From: Blautia wexlerae DSM 19850
Lineage (GTDB): Bacteria; Bacillota; Clostridia; Lachnospirales; Lachnospiraceae
NCBI RefSeq assembly: GCF_025148125.1
Contig: NZ_CP102267.1
Span: 4,102,501 to 4,166,500 of the forward strand
Reading direction: 5' to 3'
DNA: 64,000 bases
The position numbers were made by a program, and so were the translations under genes. Position 1 is the stretch's first letter. Every line of letters begins with the position of its first letter. Of the stretch, positions 13,330-56,701 are shown piece by piece. The notes beneath the pieces were generated by a model. That model worked only from the letters and a program-made list of their open reading frames with translations, was not told the origin of the DNA and made no database searches.

Positions 13330-13484
13330 TTGTATACCGCTGCAAATGAGTAAATAAAAAGCCTTACTGTCTGGCAGTAGGGCTTGCGTAATCTTACATA
13401 AAAATATAAAGAATACTTAGTCCTCGGTAGGCGTTTACAACTTATGCCTTGCGGCACCTACTGTCTTCGGCAGCGTTCTGGTAT
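13330..13484 (-). ncRNA. ribosomal protein L10 leader RNA
   Basis: The minus-strand transcript between the rplJ promoter and gene carries the motif GAAGACAGTAGGTGCCG followed by CCTACCGAGGACTAAG. This is the kink-turn-like L10(L12)4 binding element known from Firmicute rplJ leaders. The attenuator hairpin follows. Binding of excess L10-L12 here should repress rplJL. Confidence 0.8.
13353..13385 (-). terminator. attenuator-type hairpin in the L10 leader
   Basis: On the minus strand AAGCCCTACTG and CAGTAAGGCTT pair with one mismatch and TTTTTATTTA follows. It lies inside the rplJ leader, about 50 bp before the start codon, where L10 leader attenuators are found. This suggests the L10 complex promotes premature termination. 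Confidence 0.7.
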
Positions 13485-13513
13485 AAGATAGCATATGAGA
13501 TTTGGGTTGTCAA
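13485..13513 (-). promoter_or_regulatory. promoter of rplJ-rplL
   Basis: On the minus strand TTGACA, exactly 17 bp, then TATCTT. The expected transcription start falls just before the L10 leader structure, and the -35 box lies 42 bp beyond the long palindrome. Confidence 0.85.
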
Positions 13514-15086: not shown

Positions 15087-16187
15087 ATGATATTATATCA
15101 TATATCTGCAAAAAAATTAATAACACGCTGTACTTTTTCAATGCTCGCAGCATCTCTTATATTATGTCCGGCTGTTTTTTCCGGATGTTCGGCAAAAACG
15201 GAAAATGTCAAAAATACGGATGCCAGTTCTCAGGATCCCATCTCTGCCACTGCGATCAAACTGAATACTGCAGTTACGGTCACTATCTATGATTCTCAGG
15301 ACAGAGAGCTGCTTACAGAATGCATGAATCTTTGTGACAAGTATGAGAAAATATTCAGCCGCACCGCAGATGACAGTGAATTATATCAGTTAAACCATCG
15401 GGAACTTACACCTGTGAAGGGGACAGAGGATACTTATCAGGTGTCGGCTTCTCTGGCGGAGCTGGTTTCTAAGGGACTTGATTATTCTGTATTATCTGAG
15501 GGTGCATTTGATATTGCTATTGAACCGCTGACTTCTCTGTGGGATTTTACTGCTGAAAATCCAAAAGTGCCCAAGGACAGTCTGATCCGGGCAGCACTGC
15601 CCAAATGTAATTATCACAATATCTCTGTTGATACAGATAAAAATGAGATTACATTAAAGACAGACGATACTGCAATCGAACTCGGTGCCATTGCCAAGGG
15701 TTATATCGCAGATCGCCTGAAGGATTATCTGGTTTCTCAGAATGTAAAAAGTGCGATCATCAATCTTGGCGGAAATGTTCTCTGTATTGGCGAAAAAACA
15801 GACAATTCTGCTTTTAAGATCGGGATCCAGAAACCATTTGCAGACCGAAGCGAAACTATTGCTGTTATGGACATCAGGGATAAGTCAGTGGTTTCCTCAG
15901 GAATTTATGAGAGATGCTTTGAACAAGATGGCACTTTGTATCATCACCTGCTCAATCCTAAAACCGGCTATCCTTATGATAACGGGCTGATTGCAGTTAC
16001 CATTATTTCCGATCAGTCTGTGGATGGGGATGCGCTGAGCACGACCTGCTTTGCTCTTGGTCTGGAGGATGGCATGAAACTGGCCGAGTCTCTGGACGAT
16101 GTACAAGCATTTTTCGTAACTTCTGATTATGAGATTCACTATACCAGAGATTTCCAGAAAAAAATCAAAGTTACGGAAACAGAATAA
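15087..16187 (+). CDS. apbE: FAD:protein FMN transferase (ApbE family), lipoprotein
   Basis: Membrane-attached flavinyltransferase of 366 residues that covalently attaches FMN from FAD to threonine in target proteins such as Rnf/Nqr subunits or extracellular flavoproteins. A signal peptide ends in a lipobox (AVFSGC, Cys near residue 33). Family landmarks are FSRTADDSELYQLN, GAFDIAIEPLTSLWDF, IELGAIAKGYIADRL (flavin-binding region), AIINLGGNVLCIG and the C-terminal DGDALSTTCFALG. GAGGT lies 8 bases before the ATG. No flavinylated partner gene is adjacent. The unusual tandem array begins about 12 bp after its stop codon. Confidence 0.93.
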   Translation: MILYHISAKKLITRCTFSMLAASLILCPAVFSGCSAKTENVKNTDASSQDPISATAIKLNTAVTVTIYDSQDRELLTECMNLCDKYEKIFSRTADDSELYQLNHRELTPVKGTEDTYQVSASLAELVSKGLDYSVLSEGAFDIAIEPLTSLWDFTAENPKVPKDSLIRAALPKCNYHNISVDTDKNEITLKTDDTAIELGAIAKGYIADRLKDYLVSQNVKSAIINLGGNVLCIGEKTDNSAFKIGIQKPFADRSETIAVMDIRDKSVVSSGIYERCFEQDGTLYHHLLNPKTGYPYDNGLIAVTIISDQSVDGDALSTTCFALGLEDGMKLAESLDDVQAFFVTSDYEIHYTRDFQKKIKVTETE

Positions 16188-16198
16188 ATCTGTCTCTG

Positions 16199-16447
16199 AT
16201 GACTTAAATTGAAAAAACAGAAATATAAATCAACAATTATTAACTGGTGTTTTGACTTAATCAATAGATTTTGATTTTCAAGTCATACAATCCACACTAA
16301 TTTCTTGACCTAATTTGCAATTTGTAAATTTCCAGTCAAATATTTTTGCCTGTTCGCTTGACTTAATTTGTTATTCTATAAAATCTCAGTCAACATACTG
16401 TTAATTATTTCATGACTTATATGAAACTTTTTTTGATTTAAGTCAAT
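16199..16447. repeat. five-unit 53-bp-period array of alternating inverted TTGACTTAA sites
   Basis: Forward (T/A)TGAC(T/C)TA sites have their G at 16201, 16254, 16307, 16360 and 16414. Inverted sites (AGTCA on the plus strand, AATCA in the first unit) begin at 16228, 16281, 16334, 16388 and 16441. Spacing is therefore 53-54 bp between like sites and about 27 bp between opposite sites. The bases between sites are AT-rich and differ from unit to unit. Each unit can also be read as a hairpin with arms TTGACTT/AAGTCAA. No coding frame is present. Function is unknown. Confidence 0.8.
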
Positions 16448-16465
16448 ATTGTACATAGCTGACAA

Positions 16466-16508
16466 AAGTCCCCTGCTTATTGCTTTTCGCAACCTCCGCA
16501 GGGGACTT
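16466..16508. other. perfect 11-bp inverted repeat (hairpin) after the array
   Basis: AAGTCCCCTGC and GCAGGGGACTT are perfect inverses around a 21-base loop. It could end transcripts from apbE and the array, although a clear T-run is missing on the plus strand; on the minus strand TTTTGTC follows. Confidence 0.6.
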
Positions 16509-16778
16509 ACCCTATTCAGTTAAACTTATCACTCAGCCTGACAGTTCTTCTGACGATTATTCATTTTTAGGATAATAAGCGGGAATCCTCGGCAATTCAA
16601 TTACCGATGAAAGCGCAAACTGTGCATATCTGCACTCATAATAAATAAAAATAACAAAATGATTTTCATTCAATTTCTCCCTTCTCCTCCCTATAAAAAG
16701 CTGTATCCAGCATTATAAAAAAGAAAATATGTTCGATATTTTATTGCGAAATTTTTGATATCATGGTATACTATATGC

Positions 16779-17189
16779 ATGAAAGAAAATCTTATACATT
16801 ACCGCACTTGTGTGTGTAATATTAATTACCATATGGTATGGTCAGTGAAATACCGGCGGAAGATATTAAATGCGGAGGTCGAGGCATATCTGCAGGAACT
16901 GGTGCAGGAGATCGCAGAAGATAAGGGCTTTACGATCCATCTGTTTGAATGTGGGGAAGGAGACCATGTACACTGTTTTGTGTCAGCCCCTCCGAAATTA
17001 TCCATAACTGCGATCGTGAAATACCTGAAGGGGATCTCCGGCAGGAAGCTTTTCGAACGTTTTCCGGAAATAAGAAACCAGCTTTGGAAAGGGGAGCTGT
17101 GGAACCATTCCTATTATGTGGAAACGGTCGGATCTGTATCGGAAGAAAATATCCGCAGGTATATCGAACATCAGAGCAAAGCTTACTGA
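16779..17189 (+). CDS. tnpA: IS200/IS605 Y1 transposase TnpA
   Basis: Single-strand DNA transposase with the HUH fold, about 136 residues from the ATG at 16779; an upstream ATG at 16755 would add 8 residues. It begins with the family pattern YHMVWSVKYRRKIL. The metal-binding HVH pair is in EGDHVHCFVSAPP near residue 60, and the catalytic tyrosine lies in NHSYYVETVG near residue 110. The length and motifs look intact, so the element may be active. It ends 18 bp before tnpB. Confidence 0.93.
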   Translation: MKENLIHYRTCVCNINYHMVWSVKYRRKILNAEVEAYLQELVQEIAEDKGFTIHLFECGEGDHVHCFVSAPPKLSITAIVKYLKGISGRKLFERFPEIRNQLWKGELWNHSYYVETVGSVSEENIRRYIEHQSKAY

Positions 17190-17207
17190 TACGATGGAGG
17201 AGAGGAA

Positions 17208-18464
17208 ATGCTGCTGTCAAAGAAAACATCCATAAAGGTCAGCCGGGAATATGCGAACCTCATCGGGCATATGTGCTATGCAGCATCCAAGCTCTGGAAT
17301 GTCTGTAATTACGAGCGTCAGCATTACAAAGAAACAGGGATGGAGCAGTATCCTGACTGGTACTATCAGAAAAAAGCCCATAAAGAGGATCTGTGGTATA
17401 AACAGCTCCCGTCCCAGACTGCCCAGGAAGTCTGCAGGCTGCTGGACAAGGCATGGAAGTCTTTCTATGCCCTGAAAAGATCCGGGGGGATCGAGACTCC
17501 CAGACCGCCGCGGTTTAAGCAGGAAAGTATCCCCATTACCTATATGCAGATGGGGATCGTGCATGAGCGGGATACGGACAGAGTCCGCCTGTCCCTTCCA
17601 AAGACATTAAAAAAATATATGGAAGAAACATATCAGATCCATGAAAACTTTCTTTACCTTGAAAATAAGATTTTCAGGGGCATGGACCAGATCAAACAGC
17701 TGCGGATCTATCCGCCGGAGAAGGGAAGCTGTAAAATTATTGTTGTTTATGAGGTCCCTGACCAGGAAGAACTTCCACAGAACGGACATGAACTGTCTAT
17801 TGATCTGGGGCTTCACAACCTTATGACGTGTTATGATTCTGAAAATGGGAATACGTTTATTCTGGGCAGGAAGTATCTTGGATTGGAAAGATATTTCCAT
17901 AAGGAGATCGCAAGGGTGCAGGCCCAGTGGTATGGACAGCAGTCCGGAAAGGGAGTCAAACATCCGACCACATCAAAACATATCAGGAAGTTATATAAGA
18001 GAAAACATGATTCAGTAACGGATTATCTGCACAAGGTCACAAGGTATCTTGCAGAATACTGCCGGGAACAGGGGATCACCTGTGTCATTGCAGGGGATAT
18101 CCGGAATATCCGGAGAGAAAAAGACCTGGGACACAGGACAAACCAGAAGCTTCACAGCCTGCCGTATAACAGGATCTACATCATGCTGGAATATAAGCTG
18201 AAAAGATATGGGATCCGTTTTGTAAAACAGGAAGAAAGTTATACCAGCCAGTGCAGCCCACTGTCACCGGAAGTAGGGAAAAGATATGCAGAGCCGTCCA
18301 AACGGAAAGAGAGAGGGTTGTACAGAGATGGAAACAGAACCTATAACGCAGATGCCGTAGGCGCATATAATATCCTGAGAAAATATCACTCCGTATCCGG
18401 AGTAAAAAGAGAACTGTCCGTAACCGGACTGAAAACACCGGAAATAATAAAAGTAGCTGTATAA
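17208..18464 (+). CDS. tnpB: TnpB, RNA-guided nuclease of the IS605 element
   Basis: Protein of 418 residues, standard length for TnpB, the omega-RNA-guided endonuclease ancestral to Cas12. The RuvC-like fold is visible: first Asp in LSIDLGLHNLM (near residue 204), a central strand CVIAGDIRNIRRE where the usual ED is replaced by GD, and the final Asp in YNADAVGAYNIL (near residue 385). The zinc-finger segment carries SQCSPLSPEVGKRYAE instead of two CxxC pairs, so metal binding there looks lost, while the Arg-rich character is kept. This resembles the subset with a rearranged catalytic Glu. GGAGGAGAGG precedes the ATG. The 3' end plus downstream 100 bases is the expected omega-RNA region. Confidence 0.9.
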   Translation: MLLSKKTSIKVSREYANLIGHMCYAASKLWNVCNYERQHYKETGMEQYPDWYYQKKAHKEDLWYKQLPSQTAQEVCRLLDKAWKSFYALKRSGGIETPRPPRFKQESIPITYMQMGIVHERDTDRVRLSLPKTLKKYMEETYQIHENFLYLENKIFRGMDQIKQLRIYPPEKGSCKIIVVYEVPDQEELPQNGHELSIDLGLHNLMTCYDSENGNTFILGRKYLGLERYFHKEIARVQAQWYGQQSGKGVKHPTTSKHIRKLYKRKHDSVTDYLHKVTRYLAEYCREQGITCVIAGDIRNIRREKDLGHRTNQKLHSLPYNRIYIMLEYKLKRYGIRFVKQEESYTSQCSPLSPEVGKRYAEPSKRKERGLYRDGNRTYNADAVGAYNILRKYHSVSGVKRELSVTGLKTPEIIKVAV

Positions 18465-18635: not shown

Positions 18636-20153
18636 TCACTCCACATCAAATTTCTCCAGGCTTTCCAGTCTTGCTCTGTATTTGGAGTCATAGGCATCTG
18701 TAAACGAAGCCTCTTTCTTCATTTTTTCGAGAGCTGCTGCTGCTTTTTTAACTGTCTGGATAGTACCGGCACCTGCTACACAGCCGCCCGGACATGCCAT
18801 TCCTTCCAAAAGATATCCATTATATTTACCAATCTTGGCCATCTGGAGCATCTTCTTACAGTTCTGCAGACCTTCTGCATTCATTACCTTTACTTCCCGA
18901 TCAGGATCAATACGCTTCACCGCATGGACAACCGCTTCTGCCACACCACCGCTGACTGCGAAACCTCTTCCGTCAGCACTGGCATGAAACAGTGGTTCTC
19001 CTTCCGGAATATCTTTCCAGTCCACGCCTTTGGCATCAAACATTCCTGCTACTTCCTCGAAGGTCAGCACAAAATCCACATAGCTGCGGATACTCTTACG
19101 GCTGGCTTCCAGCTTCTTGGCTGCACAGGGACCTACGAAAACGATCTTACAATCTGGTTCCTTCTGCTTGATCAGCCTTGCAGTGAGAACCATAGGTGTC
19201 AGTGCCATAGAGATACATTTCGCCTGTTCCGGGAATAATTTCTTAGCCATCATAGACCAGGACGGACAACAGGATGTAGCCATGAAAGGAAGTTTCTCAG
19301 GAACTTCTTCCAAAAAGTCCTTTGCCTCCTCCACTGTGCACAGATCTGCACCGACGGCAACCTCTCTTACATCTGTAAAGCCAAGTGCCTGAAATGCTCC
19401 CCGTATCTTATTATTCTCCATACCCGGAAACTGGCCTGCAATGGCAGGCGCCACGATTGCATACACCGGTGTTTCACTTTTTAATGCCATAATAGTCTGG
19501 AAAATCTGTCCTTTGTCTACAATAGCACTGAACGGACAACTTACCAGACATTGTCCGCAGGATACACATTTATCCTGATCAATCTCTGCTCTTCCATATT
19601 CATCAGAGCCAATAGCATTCATACCACATGCCTTTGAACATGGACGTTCCTGTTTGATGATTGCATTATACGGACAGGCTTCCAGACACTTTCCGCATTT
19701 GATACAGGCATCTTCATCAATATGGGATCTGCCGCCTTCCATATGCACTGCTTTCTTTGGACAGACTTCCACACAGGGATGCTCCAGGCACCCCTGACAG
19801 CCCTCTGTGATCATTACCCTTTTTTCAGGGCAGGAATTACAGGCAAACTTGATCACATTGATAAGCGGCGGTTCATAATACTTTTCCTCAATAACGCTGG
19901 CCTCCACACCTTTGGAAATTGGCGCATGCTCTGTAACCTTTCTCAGTGACATCCCCATTGCAACGCGAAGTCTCTCACCAACTACCGCTCTTTCCAGAAA
20001 AATACTGTCACGATAAGTCGCAATTTCACCGGGTACGATCTTGTAGGGAAGCTCTTCCAGCATCTCCGGAGACTGGCCTTCATATGCCATCCTCGCAATT
20101 TCTGTAAAAATTTTGTGTCTGATTTCTGTTTTGGATGAATACAGTCCTCTCAT
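18636..20153 (-). CDS. monomeric [FeFe] hydrogenase (group B-like)
   Basis: A 505-residue soluble hydrogenase-like protein expected to exchange electrons between ferredoxin-type carriers and protons/H2. After an N-terminal region it has several CxxCxxC clusters: CNSCPEKR, CQGCLEHPCVEVCPKKA, CIKCGKCLEACPYNA and CVSCGQCLVSCPFSA. The H-cluster domain follows with TSCCPSW, VGPCAAKKLE and EGMACPGGC, which supply the H-cluster ligands. The PSW variant and the EGMACPGGC form fit the group B enzymes common in gut Clostridia. The start at 20153 is chosen from GGAGG directly upstream; a 21-residue upstream extension lacks a ribosome site. No hydrogenase maturation genes are nearby. Confidence 0.9.
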   Translation of the reverse strand: MRGLYSSKTEIRHKIFTEIARMAYEGQSPEMLEELPYKIVPGEIATYRDSIFLERAVVGERLRVAMGMSLRKVTEHAPISKGVEASVIEEKYYEPPLINVIKFACNSCPEKRVMITEGCQGCLEHPCVEVCPKKAVHMEGGRSHIDEDACIKCGKCLEACPYNAIIKQERPCSKACGMNAIGSDEYGRAEIDQDKCVSCGQCLVSCPFSAIVDKGQIFQTIMALKSETPVYAIVAPAIAGQFPGMENNKIRGAFQALGFTDVREVAVGADLCTVEEAKDFLEEVPEKLPFMATSCCPSWSMMAKKLFPEQAKCISMALTPMVLTARLIKQKEPDCKIVFVGPCAAKKLEASRKSIRSYVDFVLTFEEVAGMFDAKGVDWKDIPEGEPLFHASADGRGFAVSGGVAEAVVHAVKRIDPDREVKVMNAEGLQNCKKMLQMAKIGKYNGYLLEGMACPGGCVAGAGTIQTVKKAAAALEKMKKEASFTDAYDSKYRARLESLEKFDVE

Positions 20154-42411: not shown

Positions 42412-43635
42412 ATGAAAAAATTCTATTCGTGGTATAAAAAACATATTACCGCAGCAATCTTTACCGGACTGATCCTGGGTATCATTACCGGTCTGTTTCT
42501 GGCAAACCGGTTCGAACCGGTTCTTACCGTCACAAGCCTTATCGGAAGCATTTACATGAATGCCCTGAACATGATGATCTTTCCACTGGTCTTCTGTTCC
42601 ATTATCATGGGTATCTCCAGCATCGGTAATGCCCGCACAACCGGCAAGATCACAGCCGGTGCCATGATCTTTTTCCTGTGCACCACAGCACTTGCCAGCC
42701 TGGCAGGACTGATCATCCCGCGACTGATCCATCTCGGTGAGGGTGTTAAATTCGAGATGGCAACTTCCGACATCCAGGCAACTGAGATGACCAGCATTCT
42801 GGACACCATCAAAAACTTAGTCCCATCCAATCCGGTTGCAGCTTTCGCAAACGGAAATATGCTTCAGGTACTTGTATTCGCAGTCATCGTAGGCTTCACA
42901 CTTATCGCCATCGGCGAAAAGGGTACTGCACTTCTGAAAGTCATCAATTCCTGTAACGAAGTCTGTCTGAAAGTCATCAGCACAGTTATGTACTTCACAC
43001 CTATCGGTGTATTCTGTACTATCGTTCCTGTTGTAGAAGCCAACGGTACAGAAACCATCATTTCACTGGCAACTCAGCTGATCATCCTGTATGTGGCATT
43101 CTTCGGATTTGCCCTGGTCATTTACGGCGGCTCCGTGAAATTCATCGGCAAAGAAAGCCCTGTGAAATTCTTCAAAGCAATGCTTCCTGCAGCTCTGAAC
43201 GCATTCGGAACCTGTTCCAGTTCAGCGACCATTCCGATCAGTAAACAGCGTATGGAAGACGAAATGGGCGTATCCAACAAGATCACAAGTATTGCCATTC
43301 CTCTTGGCGCTACTGTAAACATGGATGCCGTATCCATCCTAATGTCATTCATGATCATGTTCTTCGCCAATGCATGCGGAATTAACGTAAGAATTTCCAT
43401 GATGATCATAATCCTTCTGGCAAACGTACTCCTGTCAGTAGGAACCCCGGGAATCCCGGGCGGTGCCATCGCATCCTTCGCAGCCCTCGCAACTATGGCA
43501 GGCCTGCCGGCAGGTGTTATGGGTGTTTATATCAGTATCAATACACTCTGCGATATGGGTGCTACCTGCGTTAACGTTATTGGCGATATGGCAGGCTGTG
43601 TAGTTCTGAAAGAGAAAATTAAGCTTGAGGATTAA
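42412..43635 (+). CDS. dicarboxylate/amino acid:cation symporter, copy 1
   Basis: A DAACS-family (GltP/DctA-like) transporter of 407 residues that couples Na+ or H+ to uptake of glutamate, aspartate or a dicarboxylate. Several membrane spans are followed by the serine-rich hairpin region GTCSSSATIPISKQRM near residue 270, then IAIPLGATVNMDAVSI (metal/substrate site) and GTPGIPGGAIASFAAL. The ATG at 42412 has GAGGAGGG upstream. The gene is about 97 percent identical to the copy at 55478 over most of its length, but less so in the last 190 bp, where about 25 differences are nearly all synonymous. It converges on the ABC operon and shares its bidirectional terminator. Confidence 0.93.
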   Translation: MKKFYSWYKKHITAAIFTGLILGIITGLFLANRFEPVLTVTSLIGSIYMNALNMMIFPLVFCSIIMGISSIGNARTTGKITAGAMIFFLCTTALASLAGLIIPRLIHLGEGVKFEMATSDIQATEMTSILDTIKNLVPSNPVAAFANGNMLQVLVFAVIVGFTLIAIGEKGTALLKVINSCNEVCLKVISTVMYFTPIGVFCTIVPVVEANGTETIISLATQLIILYVAFFGFALVIYGGSVKFIGKESPVKFFKAMLPAALNAFGTCSSSATIPISKQRMEDEMGVSNKITSIAIPLGATVNMDAVSILMSFMIMFFANACGINVRISMMIIILLANVLLSVGTPGIPGGAIASFAALATMAGLPAGVMGVYISINTLCDMGATCVNVIGDMAGCVVLKEKIKLED

Positions 43636-55477: not shown

Positions 55478-56701
55478 ATGAAAAAATTCTATTCGTGGTA
55501 CAAAAAACATATTACCGCAGCAATCTTTACCGGACTGATCCTGGGTATCATTACCGGACTGTTTCTGGCAAACCGTTTCGAACCGGTTCTTACCGTCACA
55601 AGCCTCATAGGAAGCATTTACATGAATGCCCTGAACATGATGATCTTTCCACTGGTCTTCTGTTCCATTATCATGGGTATCTCCAGCATCGGTAATGCCC
55701 GCACAACCGGCAAGATCACAGCCGGCGCCATGATCTTTTTCCTGTGCACCACAGCACTTGCCAGCCTGGCAGGACTGATCATCCCGCGGCTGATCCATCT
55801 CGGTGAGGGTGTTAAATTCGAGATGGCAACTTCCGACATTCAGGCAACTGAGATGACCAGCATTCTGGACACCATCAAAAACTTAATCCCATCCAATCCG
55901 GTTGCAGCTTTCGCAAACGGAAATATGCTTCAGGTACTTGTATTCGCAGTCATCGTAGGCTTCACACTTATCGCCATCGGCGAAAAGGGTACTGCACTTC
56001 TGAAAGTCATCGATTCCTGTAACGAAGTCTGTCTGAAAGTCATCAGCACAGTTATGTACTTCACACCTATCGGTGTATTCTGTACTATCGTTCCTGTTGT
56101 AGAAGCCAACGGTACAGAAACCATCATTCCACTGGCAACTCAGCTGATCATCCTGTATGTGGCATTCTTCGGATTTGCCCTGGTCATTTACGGCGGCTCC
56201 GTGAAATTCATCGGCAAAGAAAGCCCTGTGAAATTCTTCAAAGCAATGCTTCCTGCCGCTCTGAACGCATTCGGAACCTGTTCCAGTTCAGCGACCATTC
56301 CGATCAGTAAACAGCGTATGGAAGACGAAATGGGCGTATCCAACAAGATCACAAGTATTGCCATTCCTCTTGGCGCTACTGTAAACATGGATGCCGTATC
56401 CATCCTGATGTCATTCATGATCATGTTCTTCGCCAATGCATGCGGAATTAACGTAAGCATTTCCATGATGATCATAATCCTTCTGGCAAACGTACTCCTG
56501 TCAGTAGGAACCCCGGGAATCCCTGGCGGTGCCATCGCATCCTTCGCAGCCCTGGCAACCATGGCAGGTCTGCCTGCAGGAGTTATGGGCGTTTACATCA
56601 GCATCAATACACTCTGCGACATGGGCGCAACCTGCGTCAATGTTATCGGAGACATGGCAGGATGTGTGGTTCTTAAGGAGAAGATTAAATTAGAAGATTA
56701 A
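55478..56701 (+). CDS. dicarboxylate/amino acid:cation symporter, copy 2
   Basis: A 407-residue DAACS-family transporter that differs from copy 1 at only four residues: NLIPS for NLVPS, DSCNE for NSCNE, IPLATQ for ISLATQ and NVSIS for NVRIS. Shared sequence begins about 25 bp before the ATG (GAAAATAAAGAGGAGGG) and stops at the stop codon. The last 190 bp hold about 25 differences, nearly all silent, against about 14 in the preceding 1030 bp, a mosaic that suggests gene conversion. It converges on the GH32 operon just as copy 1 converges on the GH151 operon. A small hairpin GGCGTTTCGCAAACGCC lies upstream. Confidence 0.93.
   Translation: MKKFYSWYKKHITAAIFTGLILGIITGLFLANRFEPVLTVTSLIGSIYMNALNMMIFPLVFCSIIMGISSIGNARTTGKITAGAMIFFLCTTALASLAGLIIPRLIHLGEGVKFEMATSDIQATEMTSILDTIKNLIPSNPVAAFANGNMLQVLVFAVIVGFTLIAIGEKGTALLKVIDSCNEVCLKVISTVMYFTPIGVFCTIVPVVEANGTETIIPLATQLIILYVAFFGFALVIYGGSVKFIGKESPVKFFKAMLPAALNAFGTCSSSATIPISKQRMEDEMGVSNKITSIAIPLGATVNMDAVSILMSFMIMFFANACGINVSISMMIIILLANVLLSVGTPGIPGGAIASFAALATMAGLPAGVMGVYISINTLCDMGATCVNVIGDMAGCVVLKEKIKLED

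Follow-up and report, generated by a model that had tools for sequence, protein, structure and literature searches.

A phased palindromic array in Blautia wexlerae, a probable orphan of arrays linked to a Lachnospiraceae PD-(D/E)XK-type endonuclease

We report on an array of five 53/54-bp units (positions 16199..16447, no strand assigned) in a 64,000-nucleotide stretch of the Blautia wexlerae DSM 19850 genome, hereafter referred to as the window; this genome is G000 below, other G numbers denote surveyed genomes and L numbers denote loci. The array is probably an orphan of a group of phased palindromic double-stranded DNA arrays belonging to a Lachnospiraceae endonuclease of the PD-(D/E)XK type, for which we propose a mechanism. 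The association of this nuclease-type family with phased palindromic, genome-specific arrays is widespread. No nuclease homolog was found in the complete G000 genome (one contig, 99.97% complete) in family, genus and phylum searches.

The window array and similar arrays in other genomes

The window array is confirmed as real and far from chance. Its chain score of site pairs is 8.7, whereas 2000 dinucleotide shuffles of positions 15900-16899 reach 3.0 at most, the score is ≤2 elsewhere in the scanned remainder of the window, and the autocorrelation at period 53 is 0.575; Tandem Repeats Finder did not report the array. As described in a first-pass annotation made from the sequence alone, five forward sites recur every 53-54 bp (starts at 16199, 16252, 16305, 16358 and 16412, i.e. 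spacings of 53, 53, 53 and 54 bp). Each is followed by an inverted TTGACY partner, and all five partners are present, starting approximately 28 bp after the forward site. Specifically, unit 1 (16199..16233) combines the arm ATGACTTAA (16199-16207) with a degenerate inverted arm, AAATCAA (16227-16233), which has the weakest core of all sites; unit 2 (16252..16286) has TTGACTTAA (16252-16260) and AAGTCAT (16280-16286); unit 3 (16305..16339) has TTGACCTAA (16305-16313) and CAGTCAA (16333-16339); unit 4 (16358..16393) has TTGACTTAA (16358-16366) and CAGTCAA (16387-16393), here one base more distant; and unit 5 (16412..16446) has ATGACTTAT (16412-16420) and AAGTCAA (16440-16446). No strand is assigned to any unit. 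Exact TTGACTTAA is present three times (16252 and 16358 on the + strand, 16438 on the - strand), and the remaining seven sites carry one to three changes from it. By inspection, the A-rich centre reads on the - strand, opposite to the apbE-family gene that precedes the array.

The sites are kept while the DNA between them is not, in agreement with the annotation: pairwise identity among the units is 0.88 for the forward arm and 0.80 for the inverted arm vs 0.42 for the filler between the arms and 0.28 for the spacer between units. An origin by simple tandem duplication was rejected on these grounds, the arms being conserved and the spacers not; nor is the array the decayed duplication lacking site conservation that had been named as evidence against a binding array, since the arms are conserved over the filler. 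With respect to helical phase, the 53-bp repeat is well phased as suggested, and the placement of forward and inverted sites on opposite faces is merely approximate, with arm-core distances of 29 and 24 bp (approximately 2.75 and 2.3 helical turns).

A two-and-a-half-unit pattern (TGAC-N25-GTCA-N20, up to 3 mismatches) gave 16 matches in G000, all within three arrays, and one match for the reversed control; besides the window array, these are L008, located behind a serine recombinase gene, and L009, between two - strand genes. The search of related genomes for periodic sites that the annotation had proposed as a check did reveal period-53 arrays: a three-unit pattern (up to 3 mismatches) matched 9 of 299 same-family genomes. 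Its reversed control gave matches in three genomes: one on each strand in both G124 and G204, and 43 on each strand in G211. The G211 "control" matches (CAGT..ACTG) are probably its own arrays, because the nuclease-adjacent array in this genome (L122, period 53) has GCAGTA..TACTGC ends. In 17 regions from eight of the nine matching genomes we observed period-53 arrays of diverse sequence, and homologous genes of approximately 263 codons adjoin four of these arrays (one gene being shortened by masked bases). Two more of the nine have the nuclease gene beside another array (L068, L081), giving six of nine in total. G326 and G351, of the same genus as the window, have many dispersed TGACY arrays with a GAGTAAGT centre. 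The nuclease gene is present behind rpsI in G326 (L221) and was not detected in G351; arrays are present in three genomes where we found no nuclease (G000, G320 and G351).

The nuclease family and its adjacent arrays

The array-linked protein is approximately 263 amino acids long with a C-terminal PD-(D/E)XK-like nuclease domain, in which the core fold and the conserved acidic residues of the EDxHD/Vsr branch are present. The C-terminal part matches the nuclease domain of the PADLOC candidates PDC-S68 and PDC-S69 (best E 4.6e-29); this domain alone is in common, and the PDC-S68 models comprise 1202-1273 residues. We know of no link between these candidates and arrays of the present kind. Pfam and NCBIfam have no family for the protein, a PDB sequence search gave nothing usable, the only PHROGs match was weak (best E 0.0022) and has no known function, and the N-terminal domain modelled alone gave generic helical-hairpin matches only.

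Homologs (E≤1e-8) are present in 97 of 299 family genomes with up to eight matches each, partial matches included. In the genus of the window 9 of 60 genomes match, two of these only partially (G315, G322), and in the phylum 12 of 398; full-length matches were obtained in four same-family genomes, and the other eight phylum matches cover mainly the nuclease domain, mostly inside larger frames. At E≤1e-3 we identified 2838 homologous proteins, and the best 120 all lack a Pfam domain, the few that are named being called "hypothetical protein". Of 130 loci for which 500 bp or more of upstream sequence were available, 30 have the nuclease gene directly behind rpsI, suggesting that the gene has long been inherited vertically at this place. 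Moreover, L088 and L089 both lie behind the end of a similar frame, presumably metallo-beta-lactamase/ComEC-like, a possible second preferred place. Mobile records yielded few matches: 3 of 50,697 phage records (one covering 98% of the query at 30.5% identity), 9 of 72,556 plasmid records, none over 80% of the query, and eight viral contigs with the nuclease domain only (scanned with one peptide pattern).

Array positions and periods were assessed from 154 nuclease loci (90 from the top of the family listing and 64 from a second set), or 145 after removal of exact duplicates, using a tandem-period threshold of 0.52 (shuffle maximum 0.512). A tandem period was present within 1 kb 5' of the nuclease gene at 112 of 134 testable loci, compared to 22 of 142 downstream kilobases and 9 of 198 control kilobases. 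The upstream periods were 52-54 (70 loci), 62-64 (17), 70-75 (13), 85 (2) and 94 (1), the remaining nine being 42, 45 (3), 56, 57, 106, 108 and 115. The 29 arrays with period 55-100 and identity ≥0.6 cluster at 53 + n x 10.5 (p 5e-5 vs uniform periods, merely a guide given that related loci are not independent); periods 56, 57, 70 and 71 fit poorly. The simplest reason for these quantised periods is whole turns of double-stranded DNA. In 43 of 89 arrays the unit consensus exceeds the 95% null for palindromicity, and each unit consists of a bipartite inverted site of approximately 35-37 bp and a spacer of conserved length and freer sequence. Information per position across 12 loci amounts to 2 bits in the arm cores, where it is fixed by construction, to mostly 0.4-1.8 bits in the adjoining and central parts and to 0.05-0.6 bits in the spacer. 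On the point raised by the annotation, whether phase is kept when the filler changes, spacer length is much better conserved than spacer sequence.

Nuclease-adjacent arrays have different motifs in different genomes, and single genomes can have nuclease genes with different array motifs and periods (L068 and L145 in G156; L102 and L143 in G282). Dispersal predictions were tested for two motifs on one set of 15 genomes. Matches to the G297 motif number 134 in G297, with twelve separate places among the matches listed, 24 in G026, whose own motif contains TACGTA, and none in the 13 others; the G009 motif has 36 matches on six contigs of G009 and none in the 14 others. Reversed controls of both searches gave no matches. 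Within an array beside the nuclease, the spacers are for the most part homogenised. Copying of arrays is probable in at least one genome, since those in G297 have arms, centre and spacer families in common and several have a left or right flank in common, these flanks being part of a larger repeat that is itself dispersed. In seven other genomes including G000 no shared flanks were found except 38 bp in G112, some G009 flanks being cut by contig ends. Several G297 arrays (L326-L334) are embedded in a mosaic made up of further dispersed repeats whose ends resemble GTTTCATAAA..TTTATGAAAC.

In the mechanism that we propose, each unit would be bound by nuclease dimers, which would line up along a single face of the helix and bind cooperatively as a nucleoprotein array; this array would also regulate the nuclease gene that follows it. 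Nicks or cuts made within or close to the units may drive unit duplication, homogenisation and copying to new places, such that the arrays would spread in the manner of homing or of a REP/RAYT-type element. In G000 the nuclease would have been lost or never present, and the array would be a relict or serve another binder.

Neighbourhood and orphan status of the window array

The array is preceded by an apbE-family gene (15087..16187, + strand; PF02424, E 4.6e-85), a neighbour rather than part of the system, which ends 11 bp before it. None of the 14 apbE homologs examined has the array behind it, and 11 further genomes have apbE matches outside the examined set. We accordingly rejected an apbE-linked function of the array. 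Behind the nearest homolog (88% identical) a terminator-like hairpin and a convergent gene follow directly; this gene corresponds to that starting at 18636 in the window, which we take to be hydrogenase-like. Because the array is absent behind these homologs, it is either a gain in its lineage or a loss in the others, and now an orphan. In addition, the arms have outlasted the spacers, which points either to a recent loss of the nuclease or to use of the window sites by another factor. Some relatives keep the nuclease and its array at the rpsI place where G000 has frames resembling mobile-element remains (L285, 1890-3387), among them what we assume to be a ParA-like fragment; a nuclease remnant was not seen behind rpsI in G000 and was rejected, the place being taken by these frames.

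On the other side, 308 bp from the array, is an IS200/IS605 element (16564-18464) with a Y1 transposase (16755-17189) and a TnpB-like gene (17208-18464). It was rejected as the partner of the array, as no relative of its TnpA or TnpB was detected (tblastn, E≤1e-5) in 19 other array loci of 3-20 kb each. Its left-end region recurs elsewhere in G000 and in the genus, and the hairpin AAAGTCCCCTGC..GCAGGGGACTT right behind the array (16470-16526) is a dispersed repeat that has numerous short matches in G000 and in related genomes. An L10 ribosomal leader RNA (13346-13488, - strand; 72 bits) is the sole Rfam match in the window at the gathering score, with none over the array. Finally, an identical 24-bp tandem duplication, ATCATTACCGGACTGATCCTGGGT, is present at 42457-42502 and 55523-55568, 13 kb apart.

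Alternative explanations, known systems and significance

The neighbouring element leads to one alternative, namely that the arrays are non-functional debris resembling miniature inverted-repeat transposable elements and spread by another mobile element, either the adjacent IS200/IS605 or a serine recombinase. The distance of 308 bp, the recombinase gene beside L008 and the several G297 arrays inside copied repeats are in keeping with it, but relatives of TnpA/TnpB are missing from the 19 other loci and debris would not keep a spacing that varies by hardly a base and follows helical turns in discrete steps; we consider this quite improbable. An operator or nucleoprotein array of an unrelated host factor (a nucleoid, anchoring or transcription protein), with the nuclease gene as one regulated target, would explain the arrays in genomes without a detected nuclease as well as window sites that are conserved while the spacers are near random. 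It is nevertheless unlikely in our judgement: tandem periods lie 5' of the nuclease at the large majority of loci, the motifs change between genomes together with the nuclease-adjacent array, and one conserved factor leaves the differing motifs and periods within G156 and G282 unexplained.

A type III toxin-antitoxin-like system, in which array RNAs would bind and silence the downstream nuclease and orphans would be spare antitoxin or relics, shares with ToxIN the tandem repeats immediately 5' of a nuclease-type gene (PMC8860590). Moreover, the gap from the last recognised repeat to the profile start of the gene is <80 bp at 23 of 92 loci, and the RNA folding of the window array is much stronger than that of shuffled sequences (z -7.1), a value expected from any palindrome array. 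Among 39 nuclease-adjacent TGACY arrays (187 units), however, the fifth arm bases are C..A in 77, T..A in 87, C..G in 15 and T..G in 8 units, such that the second commonest combination is a mismatch in gene-sense RNA, and the association between the arms is not significant (Fisher p 0.12; p 0.29 for arrays not adjacent to the nuclease). These data thus give no support to pairing within gene-sense RNA; C..A is a wobble pair in antisense RNA, which the covariation test alone leaves possible. A terminator-like site between array and gene was predicted at merely 2 of 92 loci (0 in shuffled gaps), i.e. 90 of 92 are without one, the periods are longer than in ToxIN and quantised by helical turns, for which RNA offers no obvious reason, and the domain matches PD-(D/E)XK proteins, with ToxN not among the fold matches listed, though it may lie beyond them. 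We hence regard silencing by array RNAs as rather unlikely, and do not favour the hairpin reading of the first-pass annotation. Since arm variation shows no significant base-pairing constraint, the data favour protein-binding double-stranded sites over RNA hairpins. The first interpretation is in part supported: periods near whole turns, kept spacer length and the lack of significant arm covariation support a phased protein-binding array, the more specific readings as a centromere-like partition site, a nucleoprotein switch or a chromosomal anchoring site being candidates only. The linked nuclease family and the orphan state of this copy could not be seen from the sequence alone.

Among known systems REP/RAYT (TnpA-REP, REPtrons, BIMEs) is the closest analogue in life-style, although two of its defining features are absent here. 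It comprises palindromic intergenic repeats dispersed in one genome, in tandem alternating orientation, with a DNA-processing-type enzyme beside its own repeats (PMC8266576). Likewise, an enzyme gene adjacent to cognate repeats with dispersed copies was found here, with dispersal in two genomes, but not in G000. In contrast, the array enzyme matches PD-(D/E)XK nucleases and not HUH/Y1 (no Y1 match in Pfam), GTAG/CTAC is absent from window positions 16150-16500, and the units are strictly regular with a period near whole turns and a site that appears double-stranded and bipartite. GTAG/CTAC occurs anywhere in 24 of 89 consensus units, and in 7 of 37 of the TGAC type, and is therefore not a general tag. 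Compared to EDxHD/Vsr-type homing endonucleases (I-Bth0305I), the nuclease is encoded by a free-standing gene that follows its own site array and was not seen within introns or inteins, and it has an N-terminal helical-hairpin domain. CRISPR arrays resemble ours in having repeats with constant-length spacers, and the window spacers all differ; the units, however, are bipartite inverted sites, and spacers are homogenised beside the nuclease and shared between arrays in G297. The earlier statement that the array is not CRISPR is not contradicted by Rfam, Pfam, NCBIfam or literature searches, which did not extend to cas genes, and the same searches do not contradict that the design has no named family. 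The nuclease-array system is apparently undescribed: no description of the association was found in a literature search outside which most subscription papers and bioRxiv lay.

We suggest, with less confidence than for the orphan status of the window array, that this may be a new chromosomal repeat-nuclease class, in which a vertically kept endonuclease, often behind rpsI, would recognise, phase, multiply and spread its own helix-locked arrays, with several mutually orthogonal copies in some genomes. Such a class would be the counterpart of REP/RAYT with a non-HUH enzyme and would build nucleoprotein arrays on double-stranded DNA. If true, a large unannotated protein family of gut and rumen bacteria would form a single genetic system that can be recognised as such and whose DNA target can be predicted, and the helical phasing of repeats would be readable from sequence alone. 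It would also represent a second and independent way in which bacteria come by dispersed palindromic repeats and retain them, and would provide matched nuclease/site pairs that differ between genomes. The roles of the arrays, be it chromosome structuring, nuclease regulation or selfishness, would thereby be made directly testable.
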